The notes beneath the pieces are model-generated. The model ran no database searches. It was not told the DNA's origin and saw only the letters and a list, made by a program, of their open reading frames with translations. Source: a virus. Taken from it: DNA of 50,640 bases. A program made the translations under genes and the position numbers. This document shows, piece after piece, positions 2,714-43,578 of this stretch. The DNA lies in IMG/VR virus record IMGVR_UViG_3300029267_001908, positions 1 to 50,640 of that record; one strand, given 5' to 3'. Position 1 is the stretch's first letter. The number at the start of each line of letters is the position of its first letter.

Positions 2714-4535
2714 CATAATAGCGGGCGTTTTGCAAGATGCCTATAGCCAATCAATGGGGGTGCCGAAATATGGTAGCATCCTTGAATTTTTCGAAGATGG
2801 CTTTTCGCTTACAGACGATGATCGCTTTAAGCGCTTCGAATTAAAGTATTCTCCGTGGTGTAGGGAGCTGTGCCGGTGGTGGTCGGACTATTCAACACCA
2901 TGGATATACTTAATATTTGGTTCCCAGTTGGCAAAAACGTCTTTTATGATGGGATGCTTGCTCTATGTTTCGCAATACGAACGCGGCGCTACACCGTGTA
3001 TATGGGTAATGAGCATAGCAGAAGAGGCCAAAAACTTCATAAAAGGCAGGTTGAAACCGTTTCTTGATGAGTCCGGAGAAGAGGCAATCAAGAAAGATCA
3101 ATGGAAATTGTCTTCTTTCCGTGTCAATAATAGCTCGGTCAAGGTCGGCTACGCAACAGCAAAAACAACCATTCGTACCAAGCCATGTCGCTATGCTTTC
3201 GGTGATGAAATAGGCTTGTGGAAAGAATCGACCAACTACGTAAAGAAACGTACAAGGACGTTTGAAGGCAAGCGGAAAGGCGTATTTTGCACAACACCAC
3301 CAGATAATTCAGATCATCATAGTGTAAGTGAGATGTTCGCAGGTAACTATTACCAATGGTGGGTTCCATGCATGCATTGCGGCAAATACCAAGGCTTGCT
3401 GTTTAAAAATCTGGTGTTCAAGGAAGGCAAGGTTGATGGTGTTTGGGACTTTGAGAAGGTAAAAGAGTGCGTGCGGTACAAGTGCGAACACTGCGGCGGC
3501 TTCTGGTACGACCATCAAAAGTTAGACATCATCAACAAGGGCAAAACGGTATGTGTTGATCCTGACACATACGAATCGAGAGAAGAACGCAAAAGCGATT
3601 CCAAAACGCTTCAAATCAGTGCTCTATATAGTGTCTTTACCGAGTGGGGAACGCTTGCTATCGGGCACTTGAAGGCAGAGCAAGAAGGCTACAAGGCACG
3701 TATCGAGTTCATCACAGATGAGCTTGCCGAAGTTCCCAAAAAACGCCTTGGCCAGAGCTTGAAGAAACACGAGTTAGCAAGATTCATCGATCCGATACGT
3801 AAGAGCGGAATTATCCCAGGCTACAACCTATACACCGCGGGCATCGACGTACAACGTGCCGGCAATCTATATTATTCTGTATGGGGCTTTAAAGGCGGTC
3901 CTGTCATAAGCTCTCACTTGCTAAAATATGGCATTGTCGGATGGAAGGACGCAGACGGCGGTGTAAACTGGATTCCTTTATTACAAGAGTTTGCTGATTT
4001 TCGTTCTAGGTTGTACCGTGCTACGCTTGACGCGACAGATGGCGAAGTAACATTTGTCATATATGATTTCTGTCGATACCACGGCAAGCCATTTGTGCCG
4101 CTTAGGGATGCAGGAACACAGCTTGAAAAAATATGCTTTAAGTCGTTAGACATCGATCCAAGGACCGGGCAGAAGCTAAAAGCAACCGGGTTTAAGTACT
4201 TATCCGTTAATTCAGACATCGTAAAAGACGAAATAGCTACGATGTTTTCACGCCTACCAACCGATGAAGGCGCTTGCACGTTTCCGTGTGACGTGGAAGA
4301 GGTGTTTTTACGTCATATATCAAATGAACACCGGACAGAAGAAGAGAGAAGAGGCCGGATAGTGTCGACCTGGCAGTTGCGGTATTCGGGAGCAGCGAAT
4401 CATTTCTTTTCAACGATGGTTTACGCACATGCCGCAATGGAAGACGTTAGACCGTTACTACAAAAAGCAGGAGGGGCCAAAAAATCAATACGAAAAGCAA
4501 GAAAAAGGATCATATATCCGGGAGAACAGTTGTAG
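2700..4535 (+). CDS. terminase large subunit, GpA family
   Basis: The ATPase and nuclease that packages DNA into proheads. The deviant Walker A GSQLAKTS is at residues 74-81 and the Walker B region YAFGDEIG at 165-172. Two CxxC pairs (CMHCG and CEHCG) form the zinc-like module usual in the lambda GpA family, and the nuclease part begins near GIDVQ. I choose the ATG at 2700 (MLEAS), which has an AGAAAGG site just upstream and overlaps the Nu1-like gene; an earlier in-frame ATG at 2619 would overlap that gene by 95 nt. The 611-residue length is usual for the family. The C-terminal end is very basic. Confidence 0.95.
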   Translation: MLEASIIAGVLQDAYSQSMGVPKYGSILEFFEDGFSLTDDDRFKRFELKYSPWCRELCRWWSDYSTPWIYLIFGSQLAKTSFMMGCLLYVSQYERGATPCIWVMSIAEEAKNFIKGRLKPFLDESGEEAIKKDQWKLSSFRVNNSSVKVGYATAKTTIRTKPCRYAFGDEIGLWKESTNYVKKRTRTFEGKRKGVFCTTPPDNSDHHSVSEMFAGNYYQWWVPCMHCGKYQGLLFKNLVFKEGKVDGVWDFEKVKECVRYKCEHCGGFWYDHQKLDIINKGKTVCVDPDTYESREERKSDSKTLQISALYSVFTEWGTLAIGHLKAEQEGYKARIEFITDELAEVPKKRLGQSLKKHELARFIDPIRKSGIIPGYNLYTAGIDVQRAGNLYYSVWGFKGGPVISSHLLKYGIVGWKDADGGVNWIPLLQEFADFRSRLYRATLDATDGEVTFVIYDFCRYHGKPFVPLRDAGTQLEKICFKSLDIDPRTGQKLKATGFKYLSVNSDIVKDEIATMFSRLPTDEGACTFPCDVEEVFLRHISNEHRTEEERRGRIVSTWQLRYSGAANHFFSTMVYAHAAMEDVRPLLQKAGGAKKSIRKARKRIIYPGEQL

Positions 4536-4804
4536 AGCGTTCGAACGTTCGAACAGTAATAGAGCATGAACACGAAGGTTTAGAGACGATCACAAGGAGC
4601 AATATCCTTGAAATATACAGTGAGTTTTGCATTAAGCGCAAAATAACGCTTAGAAAGCGCGCAAATGACATAGGCGTGTCACACGGGACGCTTTCGAAGC
4701 TTGAAAACAACGGATTTCCGCCTTCCGAGCGTATTGTATTGAACATTTTAAGCTATTTTGAGCGCTTAAAGAGAGCAAATGGACACGCAAAAACGCCGGT
4801 TTAG
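4484..4804 (+). CDS. XRE-type HTH protein, possible AUC start
   Basis: The frame open from about 4452 to 4804 encodes a clear XRE-like HTH: ITLRKRANDIGVSHGTLSKL followed by ENNGFPPSERIVLNIL. No ATG, GTG or TTG exists in this frame before the HTH. The best candidate is ATC at 4484, nine bases after a strong AGGAGG (4469-4474) inside the end of the terminase gene. Starting there gives 106 residues beginning NTKSKKKDHISG. Alternatives are a -1 frameshift from the terminase frame or a gene that has lost its start codon. The palindrome at 4539 lies inside the coding frame. It is followed by repeats and its own terminator, so it looks like a separate moron-like unit, possibly a regulator. Confidence 0.5.
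   Translation: MNTKSKKKDHISGRTVVERSNVRTVIEHEHEGLETITRSNILEIYSEFCIKRKITLRKRANDIGVSHGTLSKLENNGFPPSERIVLNILSYFERLKRANGHAKTPV
4539..4554. repeat. palindrome GTTCGAACGTTCGAAC, copy 1
   Basis: A perfect 16-bp palindrome made of two tandem copies of the self-palindromic octamer GTTCGAAC. It starts three bases after the terminase stop and lies inside the small HTH frame. The same sequence recurs at 13132 and 23900, always at a gene boundary in the late region. It is probably a binding site or, as RNA, a hairpin. Confidence 0.85.
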
Positions 4805-4905
4805 GCTGTCAAATAAGCTGTCACTTTTGCGACCGCTTTAGATGAGTAAAATCGGATGAGACAGCGTTTTTAGGCTGTCAAATAAGCTGTCAAATAAGCT
4901 GTCAA
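4801..4905. repeat. direct repeats of CTGTCAAATAAG
   Basis: A 23-bp sequence starting TTAGGCTGTCAAATAAGC occurs at 4801-4823 and again at 4870-4892. The second copy carries an extra 12-bp CTGTCAAATAAG unit plus a partial one. The first copy overlaps the stop codon of the HTH frame. No coding is seen between the copies. The role is unknown; direct repeats like these could bind a regulator. Confidence 0.8.
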
Positions 4906-4930
4906 GGTATATCTTTTTCCATCAAATCGT

Positions 4931-4971
4931 TTAGGCTAGATGCTTTAAAAAAGTATCTAGCCTAATTTTTT
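4931..4971 (+). terminator. rho-independent terminator
   Basis: A perfect 11-bp stem (TTAGGCTAGAT at 4931-4941 with its complement at 4954-4964) is followed by six T residues at 4966-4971. It sits in the middle of the late operon, between the HTH frame and the gpW-like gene. It would stop transcription from the terminase side unless late transcription is antiterminated or restarts. Confidence 0.9.
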
Positions 4972-4979
4972 GGTGGTTT

Positions 4980-30504: not shown

Positions 30505-30747
30505 TCATTCACAGTTAGAGTCATAGTTGCGCGGCGCATAATTCCACATTCGAATAGCTTCTTTGCTATCACAGGTTTCGGGGCCACGTGCTCTACAATT
30601 AACACACCCCACAAAATGTCTACTGGGGTACGTTTCGCTTATGTAAGGATAAATCCGTTCCTCTTCTCCGCAAAATGGGCATGATTTTATCGTCTGTGTT
30701 TGCAGCCTTGCACGCTCTCTCCAGCAACCACCCTCTGTTTCGCTCAT
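30505..30747 (-). CDS. Lar-like zinc-ribbon protein
   Basis: An 80-residue protein with the Lar-family signature: CPFCG at residue 24, a CVNC pair, then RGPET, and a closing EAIRMWN. The E. coli Rac prophage Lar protein reduces restriction by host type I enzymes, and many phages carry similar zinc-ribbon proteins of unverified function. ATG overlaps the upstream gene's TGA, and a GAGGTG site precedes it. Confidence 0.7.
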   Translation of the reverse strand: MSETEGGCWRERARLQTQTIKSCPFCGEEERIYPYISETYPSRHFVGCVNCRARGPETCDSKEAIRMWNYAPRNYDSNCE

Positions 30748-32105: not shown

Positions 32106-33035
32106 TCAAAATCCGTGTGAGCTTTTCCAATCCTTGATAACTTTCCCAAGCGCTCTTAATCCTCCCACACTCAAAAAGTCAAACGCCTTTTCGCCATTAG
32201 TACCGACGTGCATTGAAATTTCAACGAGCGCCTTGTGTATTTCATCCGGACTCAATTCATCGATCAGGCCGAATTTTTCAAGCTCTTTCGGGCTTGCGTC
32301 AATGTCCCATTTCGGCGGCTCCGGCATTTCATCCCTGCCGCTGTATCCTCTCGCTTGTGCTTCGCTAAGATCACCTTTCTCAAAGTGTCGGACGTCCGAC
32401 ACTTTTTGTTTTGCCTCTCTCACTGAGTCGGCTTTCAAAATCTCATCTTGCTTTTTCGGATCCTTTTCCTTAGCTATTAGGATCAATTTTGATATGTCGG
32501 ACGTCCGACACTTTTCCCGGTTGCTCTCAGGGATCCGTAATATCGATATCAATTCACTCACCCGGCTCCGGCTTAATCCTACCATCCCGGCAAGCTCTTT
32601 TTGAGAGATTTTCCGCCCTTCACTTTCCTCTAATCGCGTTCTGAGGTCGGACAGGGCTTCGGCACGGTCAAACGGCCACAAGTCTTCTCTCATTTCGTTA
32701 TCTAAGAATTGATTGATTTTCAACTCCTCATCATTCATAGAGGGGAAAATCACGCAAGGCAATTCATCAAGACCGGCGTTAACGGCCGCTTGATAGCGCC
32801 GATGTCCATTTATGATTTTATATCGATCCTTGCTTACCAGCACCACAAGAGGCGTTTTGACTCCCACAGATTTGACCGAGTCGGCCAAATCTTCCATGCT
32901 ATCATCGTTGATTGACCGGCGGTAATTTGTTTCATCGGGATCCAGCTTCCGAATATCAAGCATTCGGTAAACGGGTTTTGTGGGCTTGCCGTTTTTGCCG
33001 AACATCCCGAAAGATATATCACCTAGTTTTGACAT
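32106..33035 (-). CDS. parB: partition protein ParB
   Basis: A 309-residue ParB with the N-terminal ParB/Srx domain (NGHRRY at 76-81, usually the arginine-rich GxRR motif that binds CTP), then the HTH (KISQKELAGMVGLSRSRVSE, 142-161) that binds parS, and a variable C-terminus. It binds palindromic sites, spreads, and is moved by ParA. Two candidate sites (32382, 32495) lie inside its own reading frame. It overlaps parA by 13 nt. The C-terminal segment is echoed in the 30878 gene. Confidence 0.9.
   Translation of the reverse strand: MSKLGDISFGMFGKNGKPTKPVYRMLDIRKLDPDETNYRRSINDDSMEDLADSVKSVGVKTPLVVLVSKDRYKIINGHRRYQAAVNAGLDELPCVIFPSMNDEELKINQFLDNEMREDLWPFDRAEALSDLRTRLEESEGRKISQKELAGMVGLSRSRVSELISILRIPESNREKCRTSDISKLILIAKEKDPKKQDEILKADSVREAKQKVSDVRHFEKGDLSEAQARGYSGRDEMPEPPKWDIDASPKELEKFGLIDELSPDEIHKALVEISMHVGTNGEKAFDFLSVGGLRALGKVIKDWKSSHGF
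32382..32405. promoter_or_regulatory. palindrome TGTCGGACGTCCGACA, perfect 24 bp, inside parB
   Basis: The central TCGGACGTCCGA is extended symmetrically, AAAGTG before and CACTTT after, to a perfect 24-bp palindrome. It is the longest copy in the window and sits in the coding region for the ParB linker. It is a candidate parS. Confidence 0.8.
32495..32510. promoter_or_regulatory. palindrome TGTCGGACGTCCGACA, inside parB
   Basis: A perfect 16-bp palindrome in the parB coding sequence, about 105 bp from the longer copy. It is in the ParB interdomain-to-C-terminal coding part. Candidate parS. Confidence 0.8.
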
Positions 33036-33754
33036 CTGTTGATTCTCCTCAGTGTTTCTTTTGCAAAATCCTCATAGCATTTTGCACCGGTTGACCTTGG
33101 GGCATATTCAAAAATGCTCTTTCCATGACTCGGAGCCTCTTCAAGTTTGACGTTTTGGCGAATTTCGGCCTTGTAGAGCATTCCGCCTAAGTGTTTTTTA
33201 TAGAGGGCTAAAACTTCATTTGTGACACGTTTTCGCCGGTCAACCATGGTCGGCAACACTCCCAAAAGGTTTTTAGCGTCCCAATTGCTAAGGATTTGTT
33301 GTAATCCCTCTAATGAAAGATATTGAGGCGTAACCGGGATGATGACCGCTTGAGAGAGTGTAATAGCGGCCACAGATAAACATGAAAAAGAGGGAGGCGT
33401 ATCTATTATAATATAGTCATAGTTGCCGCCGACGTCATTTATGATCGTCTCAAGAGCGTTACTATTTGCTCCGATCACCAAATCAATACCGGCAAGGCCG
33501 ATACCGGCCGGGATGATGTCCCCGCAAGACGTTTTAACGATTGCTTTTTTAGGCGTCCTGTCCTGTAAAATAATCTCATCAAGCGTGATGTCGGGAGTAT
33601 TAACGCCGACATGTTTTGAGAGGGAGGCTTGAGAGTCAACGTCAAGCATGAGGACGTTTTTCTTTTTCTTGACATGGAGATAGGCGGCCAGGGCGGCGGC
33701 GGTTGTTGTTTTGCCTACTCCGCCTTTGCTACATACTAATGATATAATAATCAT
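33023..33754 (-). CDS. parA: partition ATPase ParA
   Basis: A 243-residue ParA/MinD-type ATPase with the deviant Walker A KGGVGKTT (10-17), LMLDVDSQAS near residue 36 and a Walker B-like VIIIDTPPS segment. There is no N-terminal HTH, which places it with the shorter (type Ib or chromosomal-like) ParA proteins. It uses ATP to pull ParB-bound plasmids apart. AAGGAAA precedes the ATG, and palindromic sites lie 15-70 nt upstream. Confidence 0.93.
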   Translation of the reverse strand: MIIISLVCSKGGVGKTTTAAALAAYLHVKKKKNVLMLDVDSQASLSKHVGVNTPDITLDEIILQDRTPKKAIVKTSCGDIIPAGIGLAGIDLVIGANSNALETIINDVGGNYDYIIIDTPPSFSCLSVAAITLSQAVIIPVTPQYLSLEGLQQILSNWDAKNLLGVLPTMVDRRKRVTNEVLALYKKHLGGMLYKAEIRQNVKLEEAPSHGKSIFEYAPRSTGAKCYEDFAKETLRRINRCQN

Positions 33755-39369: not shown

Positions 39370-40950
39370 ATGGGAGAGGAAAAAGTCAAGGAAGATAGGA
39401 TTGCGGTCCCTGTTTTCCTCTTGCGACATAACTTTACAATCGCCGACAAACGCCGCCGCACCGACGGCAAAAAAGAATTTTACGTGCCTTCAAGATTTGG
39501 TGCTATCACAGTGTCTTACCTCACCGATGCCGGTGTTATCACTCCGGCCCACACAAAAGTATTCCTTTCAGTAATCAATCTCGTAAAACAAGCTCTTGAC
39601 GCCGTACCGGAGGAGAAGCGGAGCGTTTTAGCATGGGATATGGTCAAGGATGGGATCCGGCTCAATCAGGCCGATGTAAGGAAGTATCGCGGATTTAGCA
39701 AGGCAATAAAAAATCATATGCTCATCCGTGATTCGTTGTATCTCTTCCACAGAATGAGTATATATTCAAAAGAAATGTGGTTTAGTTTACATTCTGTGTC
39801 AAGGGTTGAGGAGTGGTTTACCCTTATACCAAAATTCAAACTGTTGAGGCCGGTTATCCCTCATTGGATGCCGGATAAAAAAGAGGTCTACCTTGATATA
39901 AAATTATGTGATCGTATCTATCAAGCCCTCATGGATAAAAAGCGTATCATCTATTTCCCAAAAGAGACGCTTTTTAAATTAGATGGCCTTGCTTTTAATC
40001 TGTATCTCTTTATCTACTCTCAAAATTTGAGCAAGAGAGATATTCAATATTTTTCGATTGAGGAGTTGATAAGGGAGAGCGGATATTTTAACAGTAACCA
40101 GGGGGAAAAATATCCCGGTCGAAAAAATGTAGCTATCAAAAGAGCGCTTAATCTTTTGGTAAAACATGGAGCTATAAAAAGCTTTATGGTTTCAAAAGAT
40201 TATAGAGTTACAATATCACACAAGGGTGTACTCAAAGTTCAAAAAGGGTGTACTCAAAGTTCAAGGGGGGTGTACTCAAAGTTCAAAACCTCTCCGCAAG
40301 CTCAACAAAATCAATCCACACAAGCGCCGTTAAATCTTAAGTCTTTAAATCCTAAGTCTATAAATCTTTCCATAGAGCACACAGAATGCCAAGGTGATTT
40401 TAATTTTGAAAAATCCCCTCAAGAAAATGGAAATGATTTGCAATCAAAAGTTGGGGGGCATAAGGCAGGGGAAAAAGAATCAAGTAGGGGTGAGGAAAAA
40501 ACAAAGGAAGAAAGATCAACCGACACACCACAATATCAAATCCCCTCCTATATTGATAATCAACCTCGTAAGGCTCCCTCACTGACAAGTGAGCTTACCG
40601 TAAAATTCTTAGGTGACTACACCGAAAAAAGAGCAACCGCCAATCAAAAAACCTCATCCCCCTCTATTGATACTCTCTCTTCTCCTACCATGAAAAGAAT
40701 TGCGGCCCGGCTCCGCGACATTCCCGGTTTTGATACCCGTTACATGTCGGCCATGATGGCCGCTGTAAAGGCCCACAAATGGACATACCGTGAACTTGAC
40801 GACATGATCACCCTCAAGGTTTGGCAGAGTGAGCAATCAAAATGTAACGCCTCTAAAGTGATTTTCGGCCGGATCCGCAACGGTACCCGGTTGGGCGAAT
40901 GTGAAGAACGGGTATTAGCCCAAATCAGAGGGGAGAAGATAAAGAAATGA
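39370..40950 (+). CDS. replication initiator (plasmid-type Rep)
   Basis: A 526-residue protein with CAGGAG eight bases before the ATG. The N-terminal half looks like a plasmid initiator with winged helices (FIYSQNLSKRDIQYFSIEEL, about 220-240, and VAIKRALNLLVKHGAIKSFM, about 255-275). The middle part has low complexity. The C-terminal 90 residues form another helical DNA-binding-like region. Three iteron-like repeats lie in its coding region (40224-40286) followed by AT-rich direct repeats (40330-40370), which is a strong sign that it binds its own gene to start replication. The exact Rep family is not certain. Confidence 0.7.
   Translation: MGEEKVKEDRIAVPVFLLRHNFTIADKRRRTDGKKEFYVPSRFGAITVSYLTDAGVITPAHTKVFLSVINLVKQALDAVPEEKRSVLAWDMVKDGIRLNQADVRKYRGFSKAIKNHMLIRDSLYLFHRMSIYSKEMWFSLHSVSRVEEWFTLIPKFKLLRPVIPHWMPDKKEVYLDIKLCDRIYQALMDKKRIIYFPKETLFKLDGLAFNLYLFIYSQNLSKRDIQYFSIEELIRESGYFNSNQGEKYPGRKNVAIKRALNLLVKHGAIKSFMVSKDYRVTISHKGVLKVQKGCTQSSRGVYSKFKTSPQAQQNQSTQAPLNLKSLNPKSINLSIEHTECQGDFNFEKSPQENGNDLQSKVGGHKAGEKESSRGEEKTKEERSTDTPQYQIPSYIDNQPRKAPSLTSELTVKFLGDYTEKRATANQKTSSPSIDTLSSPTMKRIAARLRDIPGFDTRYMSAMMAAVKAHKWTYRELDDMITLKVWQSEQSKCNASKVIFGRIRNGTRLGECEERVLAQIRGEKIKK
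40224..40286. repeat. three iterons with 22-bp period inside rep
   Basis: GGGTGTACTCAAAGTTCAA occurs three times, at 40224-40242, 40246-40264 and 40268-40286, without mismatch. The 22-bp period is two turns of DNA and not a multiple of three, so the copies are read in all three frames (as KGVLKVQ, KGCTQSS, RGVYSKF). Conservation at the DNA level, not the protein level, is therefore required; this is the classic form of a Rep-binding iteron array. Confidence 0.9.
40330..40370. other. AT-rich 15-bp direct repeats (candidate unwinding element)
   Basis: TTAAATCTTAAGTCT (40330-40344) and TTAAATCCTAAGTCT (40345-40359) are tandem, and a third partial copy follows at 40360. Such AT-rich repeats next to iterons resemble the duplex-unwinding element of plasmid origins. 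CAATCCACA at 40312-40320 is a weak DnaA-box-like match (7 of 9). Confidence 0.6.
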
Positions 40951-41399
40951 TTTACGAATTCGTTACTCCATCGGATCCGATTACCTTTAAAGCCGACAAT
41001 GACAAAATAGCTTATGCCTGTACTACCTTTCTCGGCAACGGCCAGGCCGGTTGCACAAGGGAAGACGGCAAAAGCCTAGATACCATGATAGCATTCTGTA
41101 ATTGTGATGAATCATGGATTGAAAAGGCAATCAAGGATTTTTTAGGCTCCGACTTGGGAGAATTCATAGAGCAAAATCGGGAGGCAATTGCAAAAGCTTT
41201 TGCTAGTTTTTCCTATGGCCGTATATCAGATCGGCATTTATACGATGATGCCATTGAGGCCATCACGGAGCCGGAGAGGCTTGAAGAATTTAAACGTAAA
41301 CATGAGGACCGGAGCCGGTCAAGCATGTCAGAGTGGGTAAAAGGCGCCTGGCAATATGCCGGGATTTTGAGAGCGGAGGGAGAAAAATGCAAGGTTTGA
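40947..41399 (+). CDS. hypothetical protein after rep
   Basis: A 150-residue acidic protein whose ATGA overlaps the rep stop. Features: an N-terminal beta segment with CTTFLGNGQAGCT, a central SLDTMIAFCNCDESWIEKAI and helices. The family is not recognised but it looks like a phage protein of the replication region. It is co-translated with rep. Confidence 0.5.
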   Translation: MIYEFVTPSDPITFKADNDKIAYACTTFLGNGQAGCTREDGKSLDTMIAFCNCDESWIEKAIKDFLGSDLGEFIEQNREAIAKAFASFSYGRISDRHLYDDAIEAITEPERLEEFKRKHEDRSRSSMSEWVKGAWQYAGILRAEGEKCKV

Positions 41400-41644
41400 C
41401 ATACAAGCCCGGCGATCCATGCCCACAATGCAGCACGCGCTTGTTGTATTTCGCGGATGAGCAATGCGTGTGGTGTGAGCACTGCGCGTGCACATATGAT
41501 CTGGCAGAGCTAACGCACTGCCCGTACTGCCATGGCGAGCTAGCCGGCAGTGAACTGGAACGCGAGCAGGGCATAGCATATTGCCAGCAATGCTTGCGCG
41601 GCGTGTTTTGCACTGTGAGCAGGCAGTTGCAGGAGGTGAGTTGA
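41387..41644 (+). CDS. zinc-ribbon protein with four CxxC knuckles
   Basis: An 85-residue protein. Pairs: CPQC, CVWCEHC, CPYC and CQQC, probably two zinc sites. The start ATG has GGAGGGAG about nine bases upstream, and its stop overlaps the next gene's start (TGATG). It is the first of several zinc-ribbon proteins in the rightward early operon. The role is unknown. Confidence 0.6.
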   Translation: MQGLTYKPGDPCPQCSTRLLYFADEQCVWCEHCACTYDLAELTHCPYCHGELAGSELEREQGIAYCQQCLRGVFCTVSRQLQEVS

Positions 41645-42290: not shown

Positions 42291-42919
42291 TTTGCCAAAC
42301 ACCGGAAAACAGGACGAAAAAAGACGAAATTGTTATGCGCGATTCTGCCCAAGCTGCGCAAGCGGTAAGCGTGAAGATGACTTCCGACGACGGCAAGGTA
42401 ACCGAATTTTCGGGTTGGCTGTCAAGGGGTGGATATCTGTTCGAAGACGAACGTGGCGCGCGCTACCATGGTTGCACGCATTGCAAGTGCGAGAGATGCG
42501 GCAATGTCTACCTAAAAAACAGCTATTGCGAGCGATGCTCCGACAAAAGGCAGCGCAAGGCGTGGTTGGAAAAACCCATCGTCGAATGGGATGGTGAGAC
42601 GTTTCTATACTCGGTTGCGTGCCAGGAGTATTTTTCTGAACGATGCGAGATTGTTGAGTATCTGGCGGAAAGCGATAACCGCATAGAGGAATTTGCTGCC
42701 CACGACAACGTAGTTGTCGTGGATCTCATGTTGGTACTCTGCAAGCCTGTAGAGTATCACACGGTCGACGCCTACGATATTTACGACGGAGATATCCCTG
42801 AAGACGGGGATGTCGACGATGAAATACTACAGGCGTTTGATGAGCTAAACGCGAAAATTGCAGCCCACAAACGCCCTATTTGTTGGGTGCCAGGCGAGCA
42901 AAGGGTGATCGAAATATGA
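42284..42919 (+). CDS. hypothetical protein with zinc-ribbon
   Basis: A 211-residue protein with CKCERC and CERC-type pairs (HCKCERCGNVYLKNSYCERC, about 62-82). The ATG at 42284 overlaps the previous stop and has a GGAAGG site. The C-terminal half is acidic and includes VDAYDIYDGDIPEDGDVDDE. Not recognised. Confidence 0.5.
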   Translation: MLICQTPENRTKKDEIVMRDSAQAAQAVSVKMTSDDGKVTEFSGWLSRGGYLFEDERGARYHGCTHCKCERCGNVYLKNSYCERCSDKRQRKAWLEKPIVEWDGETFLYSVACQEYFSERCEIVEYLAESDNRIEEFAAHDNVVVVDLMLVLCKPVEYHTVDAYDIYDGDIPEDGDVDDEILQAFDELNAKIAAHKRPICWVPGEQRVIEI

Positions 42920-42958
42920 GTAATGTTGATTATGGTTTGGATGAGGAGAAGGAAGCCA

Positions 42959-43303
42959 ATGCAACCAAATTGTTTTAAGCCAAAAGATGTGTGCGTTACT
43001 TGTGGTAAAGCTTGGATGAATCACGGCAAGGTTAAACATCCCTTTATCAAGTTTGAAAGACCTTGCGGAGCATATCCGCAATCCTTACCACCTAGTATTC
43101 TTGAGCCTATTGATAATGCTTTTATCTATCATGCGCCAAAAGGCGATCAAGTAGAGCGTTATCAATCCATACGGGACAAAGGGAAAGATTTAGCCTTGCA
43201 CATTGCAAGTAATTGCCCGTATAGCATAGAGCGAGACGAAGCAATCAAAAAGCTGAGAGAAGCAATCATGTGGGCCAATGCTTCTATAGCCTGTAATGAG
43301 TAA
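42959..43303 (+). CDS. Acb2-like anti-CBASS candidate with N-terminal Cys extension
   Basis: A 114-residue protein. The C-terminal half (residues 53-113) resembles the Acb2 family: FIYHAPKGDQVERYQSIRDK, then CPYSIERDEAIKKLREAIMW, then ANASIACN. Acb2 proteins form hexamers that sequester cyclic oligonucleotides and so block CBASS and related immunity. The N-terminal 50 residues are additional, with CVTC, a conserved RPCGAY and His residues that could bind zinc. GAGGAGAAGG lies before the ATG at 42959. The match is from memory of the family and should be confirmed by search. Confidence 0.65.
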   Translation: MQPNCFKPKDVCVTCGKAWMNHGKVKHPFIKFERPCGAYPQSLPPSILEPIDNAFIYHAPKGDQVERYQSIRDKGKDLALHIASNCPYSIERDEAIKKLREAIMWANASIACNE

Positions 43304-43305
43304 CC

Positions 43306-43578
43306 ATGTTTAGCAGTGACGACAATTTGAGCTATGATCAGGTACGTGAAATTTATCATCGCCATGCTGTTACGGGTTTACCGCAATGCCATTGTCCAGC
43401 ATGCGAGGGCTATCTGCATTGGGATTTTGCTAACTATATTCCGCTAAATTTGCAAGACGGGCCCATTTTTGAAAATGCAGAATTAAGCCTAAGAAATACA
43501 TTACTGCACAGCTTACATAGCAAGCCAGGCTTGCAGGAGGTGCACTTGGCAGCCAGGCAGCTGTCAGGGTTTATCTAG
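43306..43578 (+). CDS. hypothetical protein
   Basis: A 90-residue protein starting two bases after the Acb2-like gene. It has a CHCPAC pair (about 28-33) and His-rich surroundings, so it may bind a metal. Not recognised. Co-translation with its neighbours is likely. Confidence 0.45.
   Translation: MFSSDDNLSYDQVREIYHRHAVTGLPQCHCPACEGYLHWDFANYIPLNLQDGPIFENAELSLRNTLLHSLHSKPGLQEVHLAARQLSGFI

Follow-up and report, generated by a model that had tools for sequence, protein, structure and literature searches.

A phage Acb2-type hairpin protein with a cysteine-bearing N-terminal extension

The published Acb2 protomer consists of one short and two long helices (PMC10419184). In T4 Vs.4, cGAMP is contacted by Y8, F82, H11, K23 and R79, and the hexamer interface contains L29, A66, A73 and A77; PHROG 717 has been used for counting Vs.4 homologues (PMC10097602). 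Proteins of cluster E mycobacteriophages have been named CBASS antagonists (PMC11953737). Tad1 carries an N-terminal antiparallel beta-sheet (PMC12043709). A sponge does not always benefit the phage: T4 Acb2 triggers the Panoptes system (PMC12657218), so variation among sponges may be under opposing pressures, which is context and not evidence for the gene described here. That gene encodes a 114-aa protein that shares the PF24729 hairpin and the three-helix plan with Acb2/Vs.4 of phage T4 and Pseudomonas phage PaMx33. Unlike the 114-aa protein, which falls in PHROG 1454, Vs.4 has 88 residues, with a longer region between the helices and without a Cys-rich N-terminus. Since Vs.4 falls in PHROG 717, the 114-aa protein belongs to a different branch of the family. 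The closest solved structure by sequence is Acb2 homolog 43 (9ptq, 76 aa), which is of the PHROG 1454 branch but lacks the N-terminal extension.

The window analysed is a 50,640-base stretch that makes up an entire virus record of IMG/VR class 'linear'. It contains the genes of a tailed phage, including those for a terminase, a lambda-type portal, a head protease, a major head protein, a tape measure and a DnaB helicase. A tRNA search of the record finds none, and among 50,697 phage records none is a near relative, at the DNA level, of the first 25 kb. Adjacent ParB-like and ParA-like genes (32106-33754, minus strand) suggest a phage-plasmid lifestyle. The position and appearance of a 526-aa protein (39370-40950, plus strand), which matches no PHROG or Pfam family, suggest a replication initiator. 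Around 30560-30700 on the minus strand, an ORF with the motif CPFCG...CVNC...AIRMWN resembles Lar-like restriction-alleviation proteins by eye. Three small neighbouring ORFs on the plus strand (41333-41644, 42326-42919 and 43306-43578) are rich in CxxC pairs, and the second of these matches PHROG 11053, a family of unknown function.

The coding sequence (42959..43303, plus strand) runs from an ATG at 42959 to a TAA at 43303, as the first-pass annotation had placed it. It encodes 114 residues, MQPNCFKPKDVCVTCGKAWMNHGKVKHPFIKFERPCGAYPQSLPPSILEPIDNAFIYHAPKGDQVERYQSIRDKGKDLALHIASNCPYSIERDEAIKKLREAIMWANASIACNE, which comprise a Cys-bearing N-terminal extension and an Acb2-type hairpin. The coding sequence lies between a gene that ends at 42919 and a candidate ORF that begins at 43306. 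A Shine-Dalgarno-like stretch, GAGGAGAAGGA (42943..42953, plus strand), ends 5 bases ahead of the ATG. Of the in-frame candidates, this ATG obtains the best start score; those upstream of it (42923, 42932 and 42941) are preceded by poorer ribosome-binding sites. Between residue 20 (43016) and the core there is no in-frame ATG, GTG or TTG. The core is therefore not translatable alone from a usual start, and the extension and the core form a single protein, barring an unusual start. Given this and the well-placed ribosome-binding site, an artefactual fusion or a wrong start is less likely. The ORF is known from one contig and an assembly indel may lie behind it.

The Acb2-type core spans residues 49-114 (43103..43300, plus strand) and contains a short helix followed by two long antiparallel helices; relatives align from residue 49-51 onward. 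Residues 57-112 (43127..43294, plus strand) match PF24729, Acb2_Tad1_hairpin, in a Pfam profile search (54-55.1 bits, E = 1.9e-14; curated cut-off 27 bits). For comparison, T4 Vs.4 scores 71.4 bits against the same profile. Residues 50-114 match PHROG 1454 (E = 5e-20). As a single sequence, the 114-aa protein has no phmmer match in the PDB. A profile of its relatives has its best PDB match to 9ptq (E 8e-7), a 59-residue fragment of which itself matches PHROG 1454. No match to the 114-aa protein is found in the defence-system and NCBIfam libraries.

An AlphaFold2 model built with 65 sequences has helices at residues 45-54, 64-85 and 90-113, in agreement with the protomer layout published for Acb2. 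Residues 61-110 have a block-mean pLDDT of 95-98, and confidence is high only from about residue 50. In Foldseek, the top solved match of the model is T4 Vs.4 (probability 0.98, E 0.33), and unrelated chains reach at most 0.54. In VIA comparisons, the model aligns with Vs.4 over 65 residues (Z 6.4, rmsd 5.1) and with Acb2 8h2x at Z 5.9. Because these Z values are tied with those of generic helical hairpins, the fold match backs the sequence result and does not prove it alone. The BFVD matches of the model are Acb2/Tad1 hairpin proteins. The first-pass annotation had described the C-terminal 60 or so residues as Acb2-like and had proposed a profile search and a structure prediction as checks. 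The description is borne out by PF24729 at twice its cut-off, by PHROG 1454, by family conservation and by the three-helix hairpin, which is modelled independently of the profile.

In Tad1, too, a hairpin follows an N-terminal part, and PF24729 covers Tad1 hairpins as well as those of Acb2. The 114-aa protein could be a sponge like Tad1, with an N-terminal domain and a hairpin that together bind gcADPR-type signals too, and the family profile does reach Tad1 chains (E 0.022). This match is confined to the second helix, however, and Tad1 ranks below Vs.4 in the fold comparison (Z 4.7 vs 6.4). Whereas the N-terminal part of Tad1 is a beta-sheet domain, no strand is modelled, at low confidence, in the N-terminus of the 114-aa protein. 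A Tad1-like sponge is very improbable.

Relatives of the core are numerous. At least 560 IMG/VR loci encode them, and a search with the core consensus at a threshold of E 0.1 matches 440 phage records. Most of the 140 distinct relatives are 66-79 aa long, and four exceed 114 aa. The expectation that members of the family are short thus fits most relatives, but not all: databases already list hairpin-domain proteins of 99-195 aa. Short PHROG 1454 relatives, such as L001 (69 aa, 62% identical) and proteins of Paenibacillus larvae phages, share the core, which is aligned from residue 49-51 through to the C-terminus, but they start just ahead of it. Brevibacillus phage Jenst was considered as a full-length match (98% of the query) and rejected; the N-terminal part of that match, upstream of the GTG start annotated for the Jenst gene, is a chance alignment. 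The cluster E phages Bask21 and Toto match the core family consensus, and on this ground the CBASS antagonists of cluster E mycobacteriophages also appear to be of the PHROG 1454 branch. In GenBank, several PHROG 1454 Acb2-type genes, among them those of Paenibacillus phages Xenia, Vegas and Halcyone and of Brevibacillus phage Jenst, are labelled 'phosphomannomutase', an apparent case of propagated misannotation.

Across the alignment of 65 sequences, H58, P60, Q64, R72, A79, M104, A106, N107 and A108 are invariant, and the residues that align with Vs.4 functional sites are invariant or nearly so. The four interface residues of Vs.4 (L29, A66, A73 and A77) align with identical residues of the 114-aa protein (L78, A95, A102 and A106), and the formation of a hexamer is likely to be kept. 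At the cGAMP contacts, a like residue is present at only two of five positions. In this alignment of distant sequences, Y8 is matched by an identical Y57 and K23 by a similar R72, and H11, R79 and F82 are replaced by P60, A108 and A111. With these three replacements, the protein may have a different dinucleotide site or none. They are common to the whole PHROG 1454 branch and therefore are not due to the extension. Judged from the aligned residues, ligand preference would not be readable from Vs.4, and trinucleotide signals would be as plausible as dinucleotides.

Homology to characterised proteins indicates that the core probably acts as a cyclic-nucleotide sponge. Such a sponge would be produced during infection, and the hairpin core would most likely assemble as a homohexamer, as in the characterised relatives. 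The homohexamer would bind cyclic di- and/or trinucleotides and keep them from their effectors. This sequestration would stop nucleotide-signalled defence (CBASS and similar systems) from killing the cell. For the 114-aa protein as a whole, the favoured reading, which we consider reasonably likely, is a sponge of the PHROG 1454 branch with an N-terminus that is most likely accessory.

The N-terminal extension spans residues 1-48 (42959..43102, plus strand). Its candidate metal ligands are C5, C12, C15, H22, H27 and C36, and the extra N-terminus with possible zinc ligands that had been noticed at first reading is present, with four Cys and two His. The residues are ordered as a CxxCG, two His and one Cys, with the Cys in the pattern C-x6-C-x2-C-x20-C, and this order is compatible with a small zinc element. 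The count of Cys alone is no proof of a zinc site because four-Cys stretches are only mildly unusual in this phage; of the 48-residue stretches, 2.8% in the proteins of the phage and 9% in the small genes nearby contain at least four Cys. Pfam searches with residues 1-49 find no family, zinc-finger families included, up to E 10. The best PHROG match of the extension has an E of 0.042 and is to a family of unknown function. No relative of the extension is found by tblastn in IMG/VR, and tblastn against phage records yields nothing beyond two chance matches (E 6). Among the papers searched, none of relevance joins Acb2 with zinc or a zinc finger.

Cys-bearing segments also precede the core in other members of the family. 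In a first survey, four of 148 distinct proteins (the 114-aa protein, L003, L069 and L073) carry an N-terminal extension with four or more Cys. A Cys4-Acb2 subfamily is made up of five distinct proteins with approximately 36 extra N-terminal residues, each with an N-terminal Cys4 element (L073:2489-2797, L193:1498-1800, L069:2408-2710, L201:1501-1806 and L202:1156-1458). The motif ahead of the core is NKCF-x3/4-C-x8-C-x2-C, and its four Cys are invariant in all five. The extension of L073 is supported by a start codon that overlaps the end of the upstream gene. In the L073 model, the extension holds only a short helix (residues 21-25), with pLDDT of 54-71 over residues 1-40. A fold search with a Cys4 member finds no named zinc fold; the N-terminus is barely covered by this search. 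Both the Cys4-Acb2 proteins and the 114-aa protein have a four-Cys N-terminus ahead of the same core, but the spacing CF-x3/4-C-x8-C-x2-C differs from that of the 114-aa protein and a profile comparison of the two elements finds no relation (hhalign probability 2%). L003 has two CxxC pairs (CPEC...CSLC) ahead of the core, and gp9 of Arthrobacter phage Jasmine has a single CxC (HCIC). These N-termini likewise bear Cys or His but have no sequence relation to that of the 114-aa protein in the alignment. The most parsimonious explanation is that short Cys-rich segments were added at one and the same point on several separate occasions.

The analogous Cys4 extension, with all of its Cys invariant, and the CxxC...CxxC of L003 support an N-terminal metal element in the 114-aa protein, and the chance that its extension binds a metal is judged to be even. 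Our best guess is that the 48 residues would be a small appended metal-binding element, most likely accessory and not the sponge itself, that might stabilise the assembly, cap a pocket or hold a partner. In the hexamer, the N-terminus would project beside the dinucleotide pockets, which in known Acb2 proteins are made up of the N- and C-terminal helices, and it is possible that it serves as a lid or specificity element. An effect of the extension on the ligand or the target, as raised by the first-pass annotation, is rather unlikely.

The extension could instead be a neutral or degenerate leader, the in-frame remnant of a small gene, that is mostly disordered, free of metal and without function. 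A leader of this kind would fit the pLDDT of about 48-64 over residues 1-40, the lack of a homologue, the unrelated, Cys-free extensions on other family members and the Cys-rich stretches that are common in neighbouring small genes. It fits less well with the ordered CxxCG...H...H...C spacing, with a strong ribosome-binding site positioned to include the extension and with the conservation of the analogous Cys4 extension in another subfamily. A functionless leader is considered unlikely, and an accessory N-terminus is preferred.

Another alternative is that the N-terminus is a genuine second domain with a target of its own (nucleic acid, a CD-NTase, an effector or some other part of a defence system), which would make the protein a bifunctional anti-defence protein. 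Differing Cys-rich modules do precede the same core in unrelated phages, and the module of L003 looks like a zinc ribbon and has a weak similarity to Lar-like restriction-alleviation proteins (Pfam E 0.053; PHROG 0.041). The L003 similarity is, however, far below the curated cut-offs, the N-terminus of the 114-aa protein matches no family and no free-standing copy of it is found among the loci of relatives examined. A second domain is improbable. A broader proposal is that phages have repeatedly fused differing metal-binding modules to the Acb2 hairpin, the 114-aa protein being one independent case, and that the fusions give a new property: the sponge might accept other ligands, have its dinucleotide pocket covered by a lid or be drawn to a second component of a defence system. 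This is doubtful. The core is ordinary, and the Cys-rich modules added to it are of mild interest; databases already contain long members. Should the modules prove to bind metal and to alter the sponge, they would show a way for phages to adapt a very small anti-defence protein. If they do not, the 114-aa protein is one more member of the large, mostly unannotated PHROG 1454 branch of likely cyclic-nucleotide sponges, and the value of the result is in annotation.

In L208, an Acb2-hairpin protein (approximately 1501-1850) has a Cys-bearing tail at its C-terminus instead (CKAV...CSTQ...CMRC). In L003, the gene for the zinc-ribbon-like Acb2-hairpin protein (3666-4067) is followed two genes downstream by one for a RyR-domain protein (4352-4978; PF02026, 40.8 bits). 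RyR domains bind nucleotides in other settings. A relative of the L003 RyR protein is also encoded near an acb2-type gene in L135, and a RyR-domain gene in this position could be a second counter-signalling gene.
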